Source of the DNA: Rhodothermales bacterium
GTDB lineage: Bacteria; Bacteroidota; Rhodothermia; Rhodothermales; UBA10348
NCBI GenBank assembly: GCA_024711125.1
Contig: JANJTM010000025.1
Location: 124,001 to 188,000, forward strand
Reading direction: 5' to 3'
Length of the DNA stretch: 64,000 nt
Part shown: in pieces, positions 43,488 to 51,172 of the stretch
Numbering within the stretch: the stretch's first letter is position 1
How the letters are laid out: each line of letters starts with the position of its first letter
Notes under the pieces: generated by a model
What the model saw: only the letters and a program-made list of their open reading frames with translations
Databases searched by the model: none
What the model was told of the DNA's origin: nothing
Translations under genes and position numbers: made by a program

Positions 43488-44693
43488 TTGGCCGCGAAGT
43501 CTGCCCGCCTCATCGTCATCGACGAACGCGACGACAGCCGCGTTCCGTACCTGCGCGGTATCCTGACGAGGTCGATCCAGGACGCGGGCATCCCGTTCCA
43601 CGAGGCGTATCGCATCGCCGGGGAAGTGCGCGACCGGCTCGGGGACCGCATCGAGATCCGTTCGAACGAACTGCGCCAGGTGGTCGGCGAACGCCTGCGC
43701 GAAACGGGCCACGCCGACGCCGTTCTACGCTACCTGACTCCGCGCGACGAGCGGGTGCTGTTCCACGTGCGCAGCCGGAACGGGGAGACGGCGCCGTTCT
43801 CCCGCGGGCTCCTGGCGCAGTCGTTCGAGATCTGCGCCATCGCCCGCGACGAGATGTATGCCGTCGCGGGGGAAGTGGAGGCGTCCCTGTCGGCCGCAGG
43901 TCAACGCACCGTTACCACGTCCGATATCGGACAGGCCGCGGCCCGTGCGCTGAGACGGCGTTTCGGGGCCGAAGTGTCGGGCCGATACGTGCGTTGGGTC
44001 GACTTCAGCCGGTCGGGAGAACCGCTGATCCTGCTCGTCGGCGGCACGACCGGGTGCGGAAAGAGCACGCTGAGCGCCATGCTGGCCCACCGCCTGGGCA
44101 TCGTGCGCACGCAGTCGACCGACATGCTGCGGGAAGTGATGCGGCTGCTGATCCCGGTCAAGCTGATGCCCAGCCTGCACGAGTCGTCGTTCGGCGCGTA
44201 CCGGGTACTGCCGAGGTGGCTCGGACCCGAGGACGTGCTCGTCGAGCCGCACATGCTCGACGGGTACCTGATGCAGGCCGACGAGGTCGCCGTCGCCGTC
44301 GAAGGCGTATTCCGGCGGGCGACGCGTGAGCAGGTCTCCCTGATCCTGGAGGGGGTGCACATTCACCCGGCGCTGCAGAAACGCCTCGAGAAGCGCGGGG
44401 AGGGAATCGTCGTCTCGGTCGTACTCGCGGCTCTCAAGAAGAAGCGCCTGAAGAAGCAGCTCACCGGACGCGGACAGCTCATCAAGTCGCGTCGGGCCGA
44501 GCTGTACCTCGACTACCTCGACGAGATCTGGCAGCTGCAGACCTTCCTGCTGTCCGAGGCCGACCGCCACGGGGTGCCTATCGTACACAACCTGTCGGAG
44601 GAAGAGTCCGTACGGCAGGTCGTCCAGCACGTGGCGGACGCTCTCGCGGGACGCTTCTCCGACGACGAGACGATCGTCTTTCCGACCGCCTGA
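43488..44693 (+). CDS. 2-phosphoglycerate kinase-like P-loop kinase with two N-terminal ATP-cone-like repeats
   Basis: Two ATP-cone-like units (RVPYLRGILTRSIQDAGIPFHEAYRIAGEVRDRL...; TAPFSRGLLAQSFEICAIARDEMYAVAGEVEASL...) followed by LLVGGTTGCGKSTLSAMLAHRLGIVRTQSTDMLREVMR and SLILEGVHIHP. Confidence 0.8.
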   Translation: MAAKSARLIVIDERDDSRVPYLRGILTRSIQDAGIPFHEAYRIAGEVRDRLGDRIEIRSNELRQVVGERLRETGHADAVLRYLTPRDERVLFHVRSRNGETAPFSRGLLAQSFEICAIARDEMYAVAGEVEASLSAAGQRTVTTSDIGQAAARALRRRFGAEVSGRYVRWVDFSRSGEPLILLVGGTTGCGKSTLSAMLAHRLGIVRTQSTDMLREVMRLLIPVKLMPSLHESSFGAYRVLPRWLGPEDVLVEPHMLDGYLMQADEVAVAVEGVFRRATREQVSLILEGVHIHPALQKRLEKRGEGIVVSVVLAALKKKRLKKQLTGRGQLIKSRRAELYLDYLDEIWQLQTFLLSEADRHGVPIVHNLSEEESVRQVVQHVADALAGRFSDDETIVFPTA

Positions 44694-44703
44694 ACGCCGG
44701 GCC

Positions 44704-45516
44704 TCAGCCGTACTTGCCCTCGATGTAGTCGGCCGTCCGCGTATCCTCGGGCGTCACGAAGAGACGGTCGGTGGGCCCGTGCTCGACCATGCGGCCCATG
44801 AGCATGAACGCGCACTCGTCGCTGGCGCGCCGCGCCTGCGCCATGTTGTGGGTCACGAGCAGGATCGTGTATTCCCCGCGCAGCTGCCAGATCAGATCCT
44901 CCACCGCGGCCGTGGCCTTGGGGTCGAGCGCCGAGCAGGGTTCGTCCATCAGGATCACCTTGGGCTTGACGGGCAGCAGGCGCGCGATGCACAGCTTCTG
45001 CTGCTCTTCGAGCGACAGCCCGGTGGCCGACCGGTCGAGGCGATCCTTGACGGTGTCCCACAGCAGCACTTCCCGGAGCGCCTTCTCCACGATGGCATCC
45101 CGATCGGCCTTCGGCAACGCCTCGCTGCCCGGCTCGTGCAGCTGGTGCGCGAAGAGGATGTTCTCGCGGATCGAGAGGGGCAGGGGGTTGGGGCGCTGGA
45201 ACACCATGCCCACGTGCCGCCGGAGTTGGGTCAGCTCGATCCCGCTCGCGTACACATCGGTGTCGAGTACCTCCACCTTTCCCTCGGTGCGCACGTACCC
45301 GAGTCGCTCGTTGATACGGTTGACGCACCGGAGCAGCGTCGATTTTCCGCAGCCCGACGGTCCGATCAGCGACGTGATCAGGCCCCTGCGCACGGCGAAA
45401 TCGACGTCGTAGAGGGCCTGGAACGACCCGTACCACAGGCTCAGCTTCTCGGTTCGGACGGCGATCTCCTGCGTGTCGGTCAGCGGATCAACCGAATCGT
45501 CCTTCGATGTAGTCAC
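44704..45516 (-). CDS. pstB: Phosphate ABC transporter ATPase PstB (paralogue 1; degenerate signature motif)
   Basis: Walker A GPSGCGKST, Q-loop VGMVFQRPNPLP, Walker B VILMDEPCSALDP, H-loop LLVTHNMAQA. Signature reads LSLEEQQKLCIAR instead of LSGGQQQRLCIAR. Confidence 0.93.
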   Translation of the reverse strand: MTTSKDDSVDPLTDTQEIAVRTEKLSLWYGSFQALYDVDFAVRRGLITSLIGPSGCGKSTLLRCVNRINERLGYVRTEGKVEVLDTDVYASGIELTQLRRHVGMVFQRPNPLPLSIRENILFAHQLHEPGSEALPKADRDAIVEKALREVLLWDTVKDRLDRSATGLSLEEQQKLCIARLLPVKPKVILMDEPCSALDPKATAAVEDLIWQLRGEYTILLVTHNMAQARRASDECAFMLMGRMVEHGPTDRLFVTPEDTRTADYIEGKYG

Positions 45517-46252
45517 GGGTCTCGGGGAATAACGTTTCGCCGTTGAAAAGGCTCTCGGTGGAGCCCAGCTCCACCATGCGCCCGTCCAGGAAGAAGGCGG
45601 TCCGGTCGGCCAGACGCCGCGCCTGCTGCACCAGGTTCGTGACGAGGATGATCGTCATCTCCTGGCGCAGCTCCTTCAGCACATCCTCGATGCGCATGGT
45701 CGTGACGGGGTCCACCGCGATCGAGAACTCGTCCAGCATGAGCAGGACCGGGTCCTGCGACAGCGCACGCGCGATGGTCAACCGCTGCTGCTGACCGCCC
45801 GAGAGCAGGCTGCCCAGCGAATCCAGCCGGTCCTTGACCTCGTCCCACAGGGCGGCGCGCCGCAGGCAGCGCTCCACGATCTCGTCGAGTTCGGCCCGGG
45901 ACCGCTTTCCCGCGAGACGCGGCGCGAAAGCCACGTTGTCGTACACGGTGAGCGGAAGCCCGACCGGAAGCGGAAATACGACGCCGATCTGACGCCGAAG
46001 CGCGTAGGCGTTACGCCAGGCCCGAACGTCCCGTCCGAGGAAATTCAGCGTGCCGGTCACCTTCATGGACGCGTTGAAGGCGTCCATCCGGTTGATCGCC
46101 TGGAGGAACGAGGTCTTCCCGGCCCCGGCCGGCCCGATGATGCCGAGGATCTCGTTCTCGCGCACGTCGAGCGTCACGCCGGACAGCACCGTCTTGCTGC
46201 CGTACGCGATCGACAGGTCGCGAACGTCGAGGATGGATTCCGATCCGTTCAT
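45488..46252 (-). CDS. Phosphate ABC transporter ATPase PstB-like (paralogue 2; degenerate Q- and H-loops)
   Basis: Walker A GPAGAGKTS, intact signature LSGGQQQRLTIARAL, Walker B LLMLDEFSIAVDP. Q-loop region reads VVFPLPVGLP and H-loop region reads ILVTNLVQQA. Confidence 0.9.
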   Translation of the reverse strand: MNGSESILDVRDLSIAYGSKTVLSGVTLDVRENEILGIIGPAGAGKTSFLQAINRMDAFNASMKVTGTLNFLGRDVRAWRNAYALRRQIGVVFPLPVGLPLTVYDNVAFAPRLAGKRSRAELDEIVERCLRRAALWDEVKDRLDSLGSLLSGGQQQRLTIARALSQDPVLLMLDEFSIAVDPVTTMRIEDVLKELRQEMTIILVTNLVQQARRLADRTAFFLDGRMVELGSTESLFNGETLFPETRDYIEGRFG

Positions 46253-46256
46253 CGCC

Positions 46257-47126
46257 TCACCACTTCTTGCGGCCACGCAGCCACGTCCGGAACCCGATTG
46301 ACAGCGCGTTCATCGAAAGCACGATGATGATGAGCAGCAGGGCGACCCCGTACGGGAAGTCTTCGGGCACCCCGGGCACCTGCGTGGAGATCACGAACAG
46401 GTGCAGGGAGAGCGCCATCGTCTTGTCGAAGATCGTCTGCGGCAGGAACGGCACGAAAAAGGCCGCGCCGGTGAACATGATCGGTGCCGTTTCGCCGGCG
46501 GTCCGCGACACTTCCAGGATCACGCCCGTGAGAATGCCGCTGACCGAATTCGGAAGCACCACGCGGCGGATGGTCTGCCAGCGCGTGGCGCCCATCGCCC
46601 AGCACGCCTCCCGAAACGCGTGGGGGACCGCCTGGAGCGACTCCCGGGTCGCGACGATTACGACCGGCAGCGCCATGATGGCGAGCGTCAGGCTGGCCGC
46701 GAGGATCGACGTGCCGAATCCGAAGAAGATCACGAAAGCTCCGACGCCGAACAGCGCGTGCACGATCGACGGAACGCCGGCGAGGTTGATGATGGCCAGG
46801 TTGATCGACCGGGTCAGCCAGTTGTCGGGCGCGTACTCGCTCAGGTAGATCGCGGCCGCGATGCCCAGGGGCACCGAGAAGACGAGTCCCATCGTCACGA
46901 GGATGATCGTGCCGAGAAACGCCGGGAAGATGCCGCCCGCCGTCATGCCGCTCTTCGGAAACTCGAACAGGAACTCGGCCGTCAGGACCGGCCCTCCACG
47001 CACGACGAGCAGGCCCAGGATGATGAGCACCGGCAGGACCAGCAGGAGCGTCATGCCCAGGAACACGTTCCGGTAGCGACGCTGGATCCGGTCGTTGGTT
47101 CGGTTTCGATCGGTGGCGGCGAACAT
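46257..47126 (-). CDS. pstA: Phosphate ABC transporter permease PstA
   Basis: GGIFPAFLGTIILVTMGLVFSVPLGIAAAIYLSEYAP...LAGVPSIVHALFG...RESLQAVPHAFREACWAMGATRWQTIRRVVLPNSVSGILTGVIL. Start at 47126 preferred over 47159. Confidence 0.94.
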   Translation of the reverse strand: MFAATDRNRTNDRIQRRYRNVFLGMTLLLVLPVLIILGLLVVRGGPVLTAEFLFEFPKSGMTAGGIFPAFLGTIILVTMGLVFSVPLGIAAAIYLSEYAPDNWLTRSINLAIINLAGVPSIVHALFGVGAFVIFFGFGTSILAASLTLAIMALPVVIVATRESLQAVPHAFREACWAMGATRWQTIRRVVLPNSVSGILTGVILEVSRTAGETAPIMFTGAAFFVPFLPQTIFDKTMALSLHLFVISTQVPGVPEDFPYGVALLLIIIVLSMNALSIGFRTWLRGRKKW

Positions 47127-47127
47127 G

Positions 47128-48036
47128 TCAGGAATTGCGGATTCCGCGTACGACGACATCGGCCGTCAGGTTGATCAGGAACGTGATCAGGAAAAGAAAG
47201 AGTCCCAGCGTGAAGAGCGCGCCGTAGTGATCCGATCCCACGGCGGTCTCGCCGAGTTCGGCCGCGATCGTGGCCGTCAGGGCACGCACCGAGTCGAACG
47301 GGCTGGTAGGCAGGTTGATCGAATGGCCCGATGCCATGAGCACCGCCATGGTCTCGCCGAATCCCCGTCCGACGCCCAGCAGCACGGCCGATACGAGCCC
47401 GTTCTTCGCCGCCGGGAGCACGACACGGCGGATCATCTGCCACCGGGTGGCGCCCATCGCCTCGGCGGCCTCCCGGTACCGGTCGGGAACGGCCTTGAGC
47501 GCGTCCTCGGCGATCGTCGTCATGATCGGCGCCGCCATGAGGCCCAGGATGATGCCCGCGTTCAGGACGTTGAGCCCGATAGGCACGTCGAAGACGTCGA
47601 TGATCAGGCCGTTGACGATCGTAAGGCCGATGAACCCCCATACGACCGAAGGGATTGCGGCCAGCAGCTCGACCAACACCTTAAGGGTCTCCCGGGACCG
47701 CCCGGTCGCGAACTCCGAGATGTAGACCGCCGCCCCGAGAGAGAACGGAATCGCAACGAGCATCGCGACGCCCGTCACGCTCGCCGTGCCCACCATGAGG
47801 GCCAGCGCGCCGTAGGTCGCGTTGTTCGTCGAGGTCGGCGCCCAGCGGATCGACGTGAAGAACTCCACGACGTCGAACCGCGAGAAGACGAACTGGAGCG
47901 CCTCGCGCGTGATGAACACGAAGATGCCGACGATGAAGACGACGGCCGAGATGCCGCCCAGGAACATCAGGACCTGGACGATCCGGTCCACGATCCATGC
48001 CCGGTCGATGCGGTCCGTCGAGAGGGATGCGCGCAT
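47128..48036 (-). CDS. pstC: Phosphate ABC transporter permease PstC
   Basis: FSLGAAVYISEFATG...LLAAIPSVVWGFIG...DALKAVPDRYREAAEAMGATRWQMIRRVVLPAAKNGLVSAVLLGVGRGFGETMAVLMASGH. Confidence 0.94.
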   Translation of the reverse strand: MRASLSTDRIDRAWIVDRIVQVLMFLGGISAVVFIVGIFVFITREALQFVFSRFDVVEFFTSIRWAPTSTNNATYGALALMVGTASVTGVAMLVAIPFSLGAAVYISEFATGRSRETLKVLVELLAAIPSVVWGFIGLTIVNGLIIDVFDVPIGLNVLNAGIILGLMAAPIMTTIAEDALKAVPDRYREAAEAMGATRWQMIRRVVLPAAKNGLVSAVLLGVGRGFGETMAVLMASGHSINLPTSPFDSVRALTATIAAELGETAVGSDHYGALFTLGLFLFLITFLINLTADVVVRGIRNS

Positions 48037-48037
48037 G

Positions 48038-49087
48038 TCAGGTTGCCGGATCGGGACCGCGGAGCGTATCCATCAGCTCGGCGATGGCGTTCGAGAGGAA
48101 ACGGTACCGGTCCTCGATCGACCCGCCGGCCTCCCAGCTCAGGCCCACGGTATGGAACGGCATGTCGCCCACGATGCGACCGACAGGTCCCGACAGGCTG
48201 ACGACGACATCCCAGGAAGCCCAGTCGACCGGGGACGAGGTCGGAGACTCGACCGAGGGGTCACCCAACCCCCGGTCGTCGAGGAACCTGCGCACCGCAT
48301 CACCCACATCGGGCGCACCGGAGGAGCCCAGCGACCCGTAGACGCCCGTGGTCGGGTGCTGCCGGCGCGCGATCGCCACCGCCAGACTCGCGTATGCGGC
48401 CTCCGATTCGTCGACGAACAGGACGCGAACGGGTCTGCGCCGCTTGGTCTGACCGGTGAGCGCGAAAACCGTCTCCTCGCAGAGGTTCTTCGCCTGGTCC
48501 GATACACGCTCGATCTGCATGATCACGATCAGGCGGCCGAACACGTCCTTCATGCCGAGCGAACCGACATCCGACGCCAGCAGGTCCCCGAACGCGTCGG
48601 CGAACTCCCGGTCGACCCCGTCGGCCTCCTGCATCGTCGCGCGGGCCAACGCCTCGTCCCGCTTTTCGAACGCCTCGATCGCGCGGGAAAACATGGCGAC
48701 CGAGTCATTGGCCATGCGGGACACCTTGTCCCGGAAGACGCCCGATATGTCCGAGCGGAACTGCACGCTCTCCCGGCATATCGTCGTCGCGTAGTCGCCG
48801 ACCCGCTCCAGCAGGATGGCCATGCGCATGGCCGACGAAACGAAGCGCAGGTGACCGGCCGCCGGCAGGTGCCGTGCGATGAACCGGTGGCAGTCTGCCT
48901 CGATGCGCTCGGTTTCCCGGTTGACGGGATGGTCGGCCAGGATCGTCCGGTAGGCGAGGTCGTCGTCTCCGGACGTGAGCGCCGCAATCGCCTGCGACAG
49001 GTTCGAACGAACCCGCCGGGCCAGGTCGAGGACCGACGCCCTGAGCGCGTCGAGGTCCGCCTCCAGCCGCTGTTCGTAAATGGTCAT
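48038..49087 (-). CDS. phoU: PhoU domain protein with C-terminal ArsC/LMW-PTP-like domain
   Basis: N-terminal PhoU (RLEADLDALRASVLDLARRV...ANDSVAMFSRAIEAFEKRDEALARA...LERVGDYA/IERVSDQAKNLCEE); C-terminal RVLFVDESEAAYASLAVAIARR...WDVVVSLSGPVG...TVGLSWE resembles LMW-PTP/ArsC. Confidence 0.83.
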   Translation of the reverse strand: MTIYEQRLEADLDALRASVLDLARRVRSNLSQAIAALTSGDDDLAYRTILADHPVNRETERIEADCHRFIARHLPAAGHLRFVSSAMRMAILLERVGDYATTICRESVQFRSDISGVFRDKVSRMANDSVAMFSRAIEAFEKRDEALARATMQEADGVDREFADAFGDLLASDVGSLGMKDVFGRLIVIMQIERVSDQAKNLCEETVFALTGQTKRRRPVRVLFVDESEAAYASLAVAIARRQHPTTGVYGSLGSSGAPDVGDAVRRFLDDRGLGDPSVESPTSSPVDWASWDVVVSLSGPVGRIVGDMPFHTVGLSWEAGGSIEDRYRFLSNAIAELMDTLRGPDPAT

Positions 49088-49124: not shown

Positions 49125-50012
49125 CTACTGCGCCACCGCGCATTCGACCGGCCGGTAGGGGGCGTAGCCCTTGTCGGCGATGATGCACTGGCCCTCGTCG
49201 CTGAGGATCCAGTCGAGATAGGCCTTCACATGGCCCTGCGGCTCCCCGTCCGAGTACATGAAGAGCGGGCGGGCGATGGGGTAGGAGCGGTCGATGGCCG
49301 TAGTCTCCGAAGGGGTAACGCACGTACCGGCAGCGTCAACCACGCAGGGCATGTGCACGTGTTCGGTCGCGTACGCGAGACCGCTGTAGCCGATGGCGCA
49401 GGGCGTATCCATGACCAGGTCGACCACGTCCTTCGATCCGTGCATGTCGCGCGATCCCAGCTTGAAGTCCTCCTCGTGCAGCACGGCTTCGCGGAAGTAT
49501 TCGTACGTGCCCGAGTTATTCTGCCGCGAGATCCGGATGATCTCGCCGCTGGCGCAGCCCGGTACGGTCACGCCGAGCTGTTCCCAACGCTCGATCGTCC
49601 CGTTTTCTCCGTAAATGCCCGCCAGTTGCTCGAGCGTGATCTGCTGCAGCGGATTGTCGTTGTGCAGGTAGATGGCGAGCGCGTCGTAGCCCACGATATG
49701 CTCGATCGGGGTGTGGTTGTTCGCGATCGCGTTCTGCTTTTCCTCTTCCGACATCTCGCGGGAGGAGTTGGCGATGTCGACCGTGCCGTTGATCAGGGCC
49801 GCGATGCCGGTGCCCGAACCGCCGCCGGTGACGGCCACCGCGACGTTCGGCTCGACCGTCTGGTAGGCTTCGGCCCAGGCCTGGGCCACGTTCACGAGGG
49901 TGTCTGAGCCCTTGTTCTCGATGACCTGCCGGGAGCCGGAGTTCGCGCCCGGACGCCCGCATCCCGCGACGAGGACGAACAGGACGAGGAGGGAGTAGGC
50001 TGGCTTCTTCAT
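49125..50012 (-). CDS. pstS: Phosphate-binding lipoprotein PstS
   Basis: Lipobox VLVAGCGRP; NKGSDTLVNVAQAWAEAYQTVEPNVAVAVTGGGSGTGIAALINGTVDIANSSREM; NNSGTYEYFRE. Confidence 0.94.
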   Translation of the reverse strand: MKKPAYSLLVLFVLVAGCGRPGANSGSRQVIENKGSDTLVNVAQAWAEAYQTVEPNVAVAVTGGGSGTGIAALINGTVDIANSSREMSEEEKQNAIANNHTPIEHIVGYDALAIYLHNDNPLQQITLEQLAGIYGENGTIERWEQLGVTVPGCASGEIIRISRQNNSGTYEYFREAVLHEEDFKLGSRDMHGSKDVVDLVMDTPCAIGYSGLAYATEHVHMPCVVDAAGTCVTPSETTAIDRSYPIARPLFMYSDGEPQGHVKAYLDWILSDEGQCIIADKGYAPYRPVECAVAQ

Positions 50013-50051: not shown

Positions 50052-51023
50052 TCAGAAGTCGGCATGGACCGTCACGCGCGCGGTGACGAGCGGATCCGGT
50101 GCCGTGAGGTTCTTGTCGATGGTTACGTTCGGAATCACCGCCAGGCCGTCGGCGGCACGAAAGGAGAGACCGGCCAGGCCATACCAGCCCGACCGGCGCG
50201 CACCGTCAGGGCCCATGGAGTAGCTGTCGTACCGGCCGACCGCTTCCACGCGGTGAGAAACCCTGGCGGCGGCGAAGATGCTCGCACCCGACCGATCCGT
50301 GGTCGAGCCCGTACCATCCTCACGTACCGGGCTGAGGAAGGCCTCCACTCCGGCCCGGAAGGAATCCGTTTCCCACCCGGCGAACGCGTTCGCCGTCACG
50401 GTTTCCGAGCCGGCCTGCGGCGCGTAATCGCCTCCCATCGTGACGGTCCAGCCGGATGCCGGCACCCATTCGAGTTGACCGTACAATCTCTTGTATCGAT
50501 CGCCGTCCGGGTTAACCGAATTGTTATTTGCGAACATGACGTTGTAGCGGACGACCTTCCCGAGGAGCGGGCCCGACGCCCGCACGCCGAAATCGCGGGA
50601 AGACGCGATGCGCAGGCGATCCATGATCGTCGCCTCGAGACTGCGGTATCCGAGGAATCGCTCCGACGTCTCCCACCCCGGGGGAGCGGTGACGCCGAAA
50701 TACACGTCGTGGCCCTCACCGAACGCGTCGTGCCAACGGACGAACAGGTCCTTGACGAACGGGCTCGGGCGTCCGGCGCTGTTGGTCGCGTTGTCATTCG
50801 CCTCGAGGCGTGCCCGAACCGAAATCCGTTCGCTCGTCCGGTGGTCGACCGTGAGGTAGAGCCGCCGATAGCCGAATCCGTTTTCGCCGGCGCGCGAACC
50901 GTCACGCGTCGCTACGACGTACCCGTAATCCGAATAGAGGAGGCCGCTCACACGGAGGGACGACTGGGCGGAAGAGTCGGTCACGGTCAGGGCGAGTGCA
51001 AGCAGGAGAAACCCGGTGCGCAT
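50052..51023 (-). CDS. Predicted outer-membrane porin-like protein associated with the Pst operon
   Basis: Signal peptide MRTGFLLLALALTVTDSSAQ; amphipathic beta-strand pattern; C-terminal Phe (...ARVTVHADF). 39 bp upstream of pstS on the same strand. Confidence 0.7.
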   Translation of the reverse strand: MRTGFLLLALALTVTDSSAQSSLRVSGLLYSDYGYVVATRDGSRAGENGFGYRRLYLTVDHRTSERISVRARLEANDNATNSAGRPSPFVKDLFVRWHDAFGEGHDVYFGVTAPPGWETSERFLGYRSLEATIMDRLRIASSRDFGVRASGPLLGKVVRYNVMFANNNSVNPDGDRYKRLYGQLEWVPASGWTVTMGGDYAPQAGSETVTANAFAGWETDSFRAGVEAFLSPVREDGTGSTTDRSGASIFAAARVSHRVEAVGRYDSYSMGPDGARRSGWYGLAGLSFRAADGLAVIPNVTIDKNLTAPDPLVTARVTVHADF

Positions 51024-51046
51024 GGGGCGTTGCGTGGCTTGAAGTG

Positions 51047-51101
51047 TATTACCGCTGCGTTACCATGATATTAGCGGTCTGTTACCGGAATATTATCGGC
51101 C
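51047..51101. promoter_or_regulatory. Pho-box-like array: five tandem 11-bp units
   Basis: TATTACCGCTG / CGTTACCATGA / TATTAGCGGTC / TGTTACCGGAA / TATTATCGGCC, exact 11-bp phasing, immediately upstream of the porin-pst operon. Confidence 0.6.
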
Positions 51102-51139: not shown

Positions 51140-51172
51140 TTGCCCGGCCACGCGGGGCGAGCGCTATATTTC
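51140..51172 (+). promoter_or_regulatory. Candidate Bacteroidota-type promoter for the aminotransferase gene
   Basis: TTG - 22 nt - TATATTTC, about 30 nt before ATG at 51204. Confidence 0.3.

Follow-up and report, generated by a model that had tools for sequence, protein, structure and literature searches.

Tandem 11-bp repeats upstream of a porin-pst operon, a probable Pho box of the Rhodothermales

Background

A Pho box stands in for the -35 element, at a distance of about 10 bp on the upstream side of the -10 element. Direct repeats with a period of 11 bp are common to the whole OmpR family, and related regulators bind similar repeats. Pho boxes are built from 11-nt direct repeat units in which seven positions are conserved and four less so, and their consensus varies between species (PMC4415409). 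As measured in the sequence of E. coli K-12, counting from the second base of the final unit, the -10 element is reached after 16 nt in phoA (TTGTCAC to TATAGT) as well as in pstS (CTGTCAC to TATTTT), and the pstS promoter contains five in-register 11-mers, the fifth reaching into the -10 element. The PhoP box of Streptomyces, GTTCACC, also consists of 11-nt direct repeat units, which are arranged in multi-unit operators in a G+C-rich host (PMC4415409). The cyanobacterial SphR Pho box, CTTAACCT, is composed of tandem 8-bp units with 3-bp linkers, and its sites are described as having at least three units (PMC1906773). For Flavobacterium johnsoniae, phosphate depletion was reported to induce strongly a TonB receptor gene beside phoB (Fjoh_0545, log2 fold change 8.0) and genes for a lipoprotein, a PF04101 glycosyltransferase and PlcP (PF12850), while OprP was not induced; the words 'motif' and 'Pho-box' are absent from that report (PMC8115612). 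A literature search revealed no paper pairing the Rhodothermales with PhoB.

The window analysed here is a stretch of 64,000 nt from a Rhodothermales bacterium (assembly GCA_024711125.1, contig JANJTM010000025.1, positions 124,001 to 188,000). A preliminary description had noted Pho-box-like repeats in front of a porin-pst operon in this window. With a probability of about 0.9, the array can be regarded as a multi-unit Pho box controlling the operon porin-pstS-phoU-pstC-pstA-pstB-pstB. What is observed is the sequence itself, its restriction to three phosphate operons of the genome, and its conserved place, orientation and spacing. From these data we infer PhoB binding, activation at low phosphate, the -10 element and the start site.

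Results and Discussion

The porin-pst operon

The genes of the operon, all on the minus strand, were assigned as follows:

50052-51023, minus strand: outer-membrane porin, first operon gene (fold match, orthologue position)
49125-50012, minus strand: pstS, phosphate-binding protein (TIGR02136, 227 bits, above cut-off)
48038-49087, minus strand: phoU with C-terminal extension (TIGR02135, 132.5 bits, above cut-off; PF01895)
47128-48036, minus strand: pstC, permease (PF00528)
46257-47159, minus strand: pstA, permease (PF00528)
45488-46276, minus strand: pstB, ATPase 1 (PF00005)
44704-45516, minus strand: pstB, ATPase 2 (PF00005)

The operon proposed in the preliminary description was therefore borne out, pstS and phoU by scores above the TIGR cut-offs and pstC, pstA and pstB by Pfam. 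The porin had no match among curated sequence families, and PF07396 (phosphate-selective porin O/P) was not matched at E values up to 1. Its AlphaFold model (pLDDT 83) shows an OprP/OprO-like beta-barrel fold, with Foldseek matches including OprP (2o4v, rank 2, TMq 0.77) and OprO (0.77), and many general porins match as well. Judged by this model, the first operon gene encodes a porin, for which the gene context makes phosphate selectivity plausible. Orthologues of the porin gene directly precede pstS in Rhodothermales relatives.

Several other features of this region were recorded. The C-terminal extension of PhoU comprises about 135 residues (214-349) without a Pfam match, and the PhoU of a relative (L212:3507-4565) is of similar length. 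In the second of the two tandem pstB genes (44704-46276, minus strand), the ABC signature is degenerate, SLEEQQK and not SGGQQQR, which suggests that the pair could form a heterodimeric ATPase. Convergent to the operon, a plus-strand gene (43488-44693) specifies an ATP-cone plus P-loop kinase-like protein with weak Zeta_toxin/AAA matches. Close homologues of PstS, with 62-74% identity, were detected in records labelled Acidobacteriota, Gemmatimonadota, Gammaproteobacteria and Myxococcota (L195-L274), suggesting that this PstS type has spread horizontally.

Five tandem units in front of the porin gene

Between the plus-strand aminotransferase gene and the minus-strand porin-pst operon, positions 51047-51101 hold five tandem 11-mers. 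Coordinates and letters are exactly as described before, and the distance to the porin ATG (51023, minus strand), previously given as about 24 bp, is a gap of 23 bp. The units and the predicted -10 element are:

51091-51101, minus strand: Pho-box unit, promoter-distal, as listed TATTATCGGCC, in gene orientation GGCCGATAATA (sequence, weight matrix units)
51080-51090, minus strand: Pho-box unit, as listed TGTTACCGGAA, in gene orientation TTCCGGTAACA (sequence, weight matrix units)
51069-51079, minus strand: Pho-box unit, as listed TATTAGCGGTC, in gene orientation GACCGCTAATA (sequence, weight matrix units)
51058-51068, minus strand: Pho-box unit, as listed CGTTACCATGA, in gene orientation TCATGGTAACG (GGTAAC 16 nt before the -10 element)
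51047-51057, minus strand: fifth unit, promoter-proximal, as listed TATTACCGCTG, in gene orientation CAGCGGTAATA (two-base overlap with the predicted -10 element)
51041-51048, minus strand: predicted -10 element TACACTTC (TAnnnTTG/C type, 16-nt spacing)

All five units start with YRTTA, and the local G+C content is 0.52 compared to about 0.66 in the surroundings. The array has the repeat structure of a Pho box as defined above, with more than the two direct 11-nt units that make up the minimum. When periods from 7 to 15 were searched, in-register YRTTA repeats were obtained in the window only for period 11, with 4, 3, 2 and 1 matches for two, three, four and five units, respectively. In 40 Markov shuffles, two-unit matches averaged 0.025 and three-unit matches were absent. 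From base composition, 1.5e-10 occurrences of five in-register units are expected in the window. That the array is a product of chance or a decaying simple tandem repeat devoid of function has a negligible probability, given an expectation in the order of 1e-10, and is refuted by the conservation at orthologous promoters described below.

Distribution in the genome

The genome (3.79 Mb, 81 contigs, 99.3% complete) was examined by pattern searches. Without mismatch, DTTACCN5DTTACC is present at exactly three places, in front of the pst operon, of a phoB-phoR operon and of a DUF47-PiT operon. Genes downstream of the second site (C8:26757) specify a DUF47 protein, scoring 163 bits with PF01865, and a transporter of the PHO4/PiT type (PF01384, 400 bits). 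At the third site (C49:35308), genes for an OmpR-family regulator and a histidine kinase follow. The relaxed pattern YRTTAN6YRTTA yielded 13 matches, eight of them within the three phosphate-gene arrays. The five located elsewhere fit the rate of the reversed control pattern (three matches in the genome), and their neighbours are unrelated genes, none of them a phosphate gene. Likewise, no evident phosphate gene was seen downstream of sites with one mismatch, 11 of which were inspected in context. A search for the motif before other phosphate genes, phoB and phoR included, had been proposed as a check, and its outcome is positive, since the only other exact double units are those of phoBR and DUF47-PiT. 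Among phosphatase families, phoD was searched for, and the genome yielded no gene of this type. A metallophosphoesterase gene like that behind arrays of relatives is present on C47, where it is devoid of boxes.

The regulator encoded next to the third site is most similar to PhoB among NCBIfam models (1.2e-69; 234 bits compared to an equivalog cut-off of 296), and the kinase to PnpS and PhoR (phoR_proteo, 3.7e-74; 250 bits, cut-off 334). The predicted recognition helix, DRTVDVHVRKLR, is nearly identical to DRTVDVHIRRLR of E. coli PhoB, and K replaces the second R of HIRR in all 30 Rhodothermales sequences examined. The five repeats are very probably docking sites of the phosphate-starvation regulator PhoB. 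Four further Trans_reg_C proteins are encoded in the genome, any of which might bind 11-bp repeats as an OmpR-family member. That one of them, and not the PhoB-like regulator, recognizes the array is very unlikely, as phosphate genes follow each of the three exact arrays, phoBR in one case, and the pairing of phoB with an array is conserved across the order.

Spelling of the unit

The three exact arrays have the same orientation toward their genes, and in each of them the genes downstream run on one strand and GTTACC on the other. Consequently, the unit reads CGGTAAYA in gene orientation. The similarity of GTTACC to the Streptomyces core, pointed out in the preliminary description, was seen on the wrong strand in this respect; in gene orientation, the unit aligns with CTGTCATA of E. 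coli, with mismatches at positions 2 and 5. The E. coli consensus CTGTCAT does not correspond to the unit found here, CGGTAAY, but this rules out the E. coli spelling only, because Pho-box consensus sequences vary between species. The cyanobacterial sequence CTTAACC can also be aligned with CGGTAAYA, both sharing a TAAC core in gene orientation, although the flanking letters differ and the phylum is another one. What connects the locus to Streptomyces is the multi-unit arrangement of 11-nt direct repeats in a G+C-rich genome.

Conservation in relatives

A weight matrix was constructed from the units of this genome, eleven in number, and applied to relatives within the family and the order. Significant arrays were detected upstream of porin-pstS in 15 of 17 relatives. 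They typically lie 1060-1190 bp before PstS and therefore immediately before the porin gene. Upstream of phoB, arrays of two to five units are present in 23 of 29 relatives, compared to one of 29 for the opposite orientation. Two pst loci and six phoB loci lacked a significant array. Together with the restriction to phosphate operons, this conservation at orthologous loci strengthens the interpretation as a Pho box offered in the preliminary description. The box of the DUF47-PiT operon was sought in relatives without success, and among the genomes examined it was seen in this one only (L035 around 10756, corresponding to C8:26757), suggesting that the low-affinity transporter was recruited recently into the regulon. 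At PstS homologues outside the Rhodothermales, the scan showed that an array of this type is mostly absent, and some gammaproteobacteria have TGTGACAG/TGTTACAG repeats, the complement of an E. coli-type box. A conserved two-unit box was also noticed before a gene for an XRE-family regulator in two genomes of one genus (L280 and L282; G009 and G018).

The arrays are not confined to pst and phoB genes. In relatives that mostly do not possess this pst operon (one genome has it), related arrays precede large genes for TonB-dependent receptors (L284, L286, L288, L290, L291). In one family, genes for a putative lipoprotein, for a metallophosphoesterase (PF12850) and for a glycosyltransferase (PF13528/PF04101) come after the TonB receptor gene; the metallophosphoesterase and glycosyltransferase genes at L299:4935-6934 and L302:4895-6872, downstream of a TonB receptor gene with an array, resemble the PlcP-Agt pair of lipid remodelling. 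These gene types resemble the phosphate-inducible set of F. johnsoniae, whose TonB receptor has the same domains (PMC8115612). In three low-G+C Bacteroidota genomes, likened to Flavobacterium by synteny alone, the gene order is TonB receptor, phoB, phoR, Porin_O_P, and arrays precede the TonB receptor and the porin genes. By this synteny, the receptor gene would correspond to Fjoh_0545, the strongly phosphate-responsive gene of F. johnsoniae.

The aminotransferase gene

Divergent control was considered in the preliminary description, since the aminotransferase gene starts nearby on the plus strand, with its ATG (51204) at a distance of 102 bp. It is very unlikely, however, that the array is a PhoB site acting in both directions. 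The repeats point to the porin gene, and the 16-nt spacing to a -10 element is on the porin side. The aminotransferase gene has its own -10-like sequence, TATATTTC (51165-51172). In several relatives, the place that the aminotransferase gene has in the window, divergent from the porin gene, is occupied by a gene for a Na/Pi cotransporter (PF02690), and the array remains at the porin gene, so that the aminotransferase gene is not a conserved partner. Control of this gene is thus unsupported. The cotransporter genes are located at L195:2058-3797, L206:2168-3868 and L214:2843-3829, and two of the three products contain a PhoU domain.

Promoter geometry

The array takes the position of a -35 element: in the last unit that would be productive, the second base is 16 nt away from the predicted -10 element. 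The predicted leader, with 17 nt from the -10 element to the ATG, is very short, which weighs against the proposed model. Counted in gene orientation from the second base of a box unit, a -10-like TAnnnTT(G/C) sequence starts at 16 nt in 13 of 19 pst promoters, that of the window (TACACTTC) included. In the phoB promoters of relatives, a -10-like element is found at 16 or 27 (16+11) nt, and in that of this genome TAGATTCG was identified by eye at 16 nt. The arrangement resembles E. coli phoA and pstS in its 11-bp direct repeats, gene-facing orientation and 16-nt distance, and pstS in particular in the number of units and the fifth entering the -10 element; it differs in the TAnnnTT(G/C) type of -10 sequence. 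The common spacing suggests that the geometry of PhoB and polymerase is conserved across phyla while the sequence of the box has diverged.

Of the five units placed upstream of the porin gene before, all are real, but the proximal one (51047-51057) overlaps the predicted -10 element, leaving four upstream of the core promoter. It can be viewed as the analogue of the last 11-mer of E. coli pstS, because both overlap the -10 element in a five-unit array. Such an overlap, which occurs in several relatives too, could indicate that PhoB sites are mainly repressing, the proximal unit blocking polymerase at pst. The box at PiT deviates from the activating spacing too, by about half a helical turn, the nearest -10-like sequence, TAnnTTTG, being at 22 nt. 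Nevertheless, repression as the main function is highly improbable, since the fourth unit is at the classical activating spacing and a fifth 11-mer extending into the -10 element is also found in E. coli pstS, whose promoter is strongly activated. For PiT itself, activation is not assured with a spacing of 22 nt and the sign is uncertain; the accessible text on repression of orfA-pit by rhizobial PhoB does not settle it.

Activation by PhoB could proceed as follows. At low phosphate, the PhoR-like kinase would phosphorylate the PhoB-like regulator encoded on C49, and PhoB dimers would bind head-to-tail to successive 11-bp units, CGGTAAYA in gene orientation. The unit at 51058-51068 would put PhoB at the position of a -35/-33 element, 16 nt before TACACTTC, and thereby housekeeping RNA polymerase is proposed to be recruited. 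The same boxes would provide autoregulation of phoBR and place the PiT phosphate transporter under PhoB.

Conclusions

The array very probably represents a well-known kind of switch, laid out as in textbook promoters of E. coli; new are the operator sequence of this lineage and the evidence for a retained E. coli geometry. It gives the spelling of the proposed box for the Rhodothermales and probably also for the wider phylum. Whether more can be concluded is an even bet: CGGTAAYA/GTTAACA tandem units may be a general, hitherto undescribed Pho box of the Rhodothermales and at least part of the Bacteroidota, at which PhoB activates promoters with Bacteroidota-type -10 elements in the 16-nt (or 16+11-nt) geometry of E. 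coli sigma-70, with TonB receptors and genes probably acting in lipid remodelling among the members of the regulon. The array offers an operator sequence with which phosphate regulation can be tested in a lineage rich in uncultured members. Its consensus allows prediction of the phosphate regulon in hundreds of Rhodothermales genomes, and its extension through the Bacteroidota can be checked.
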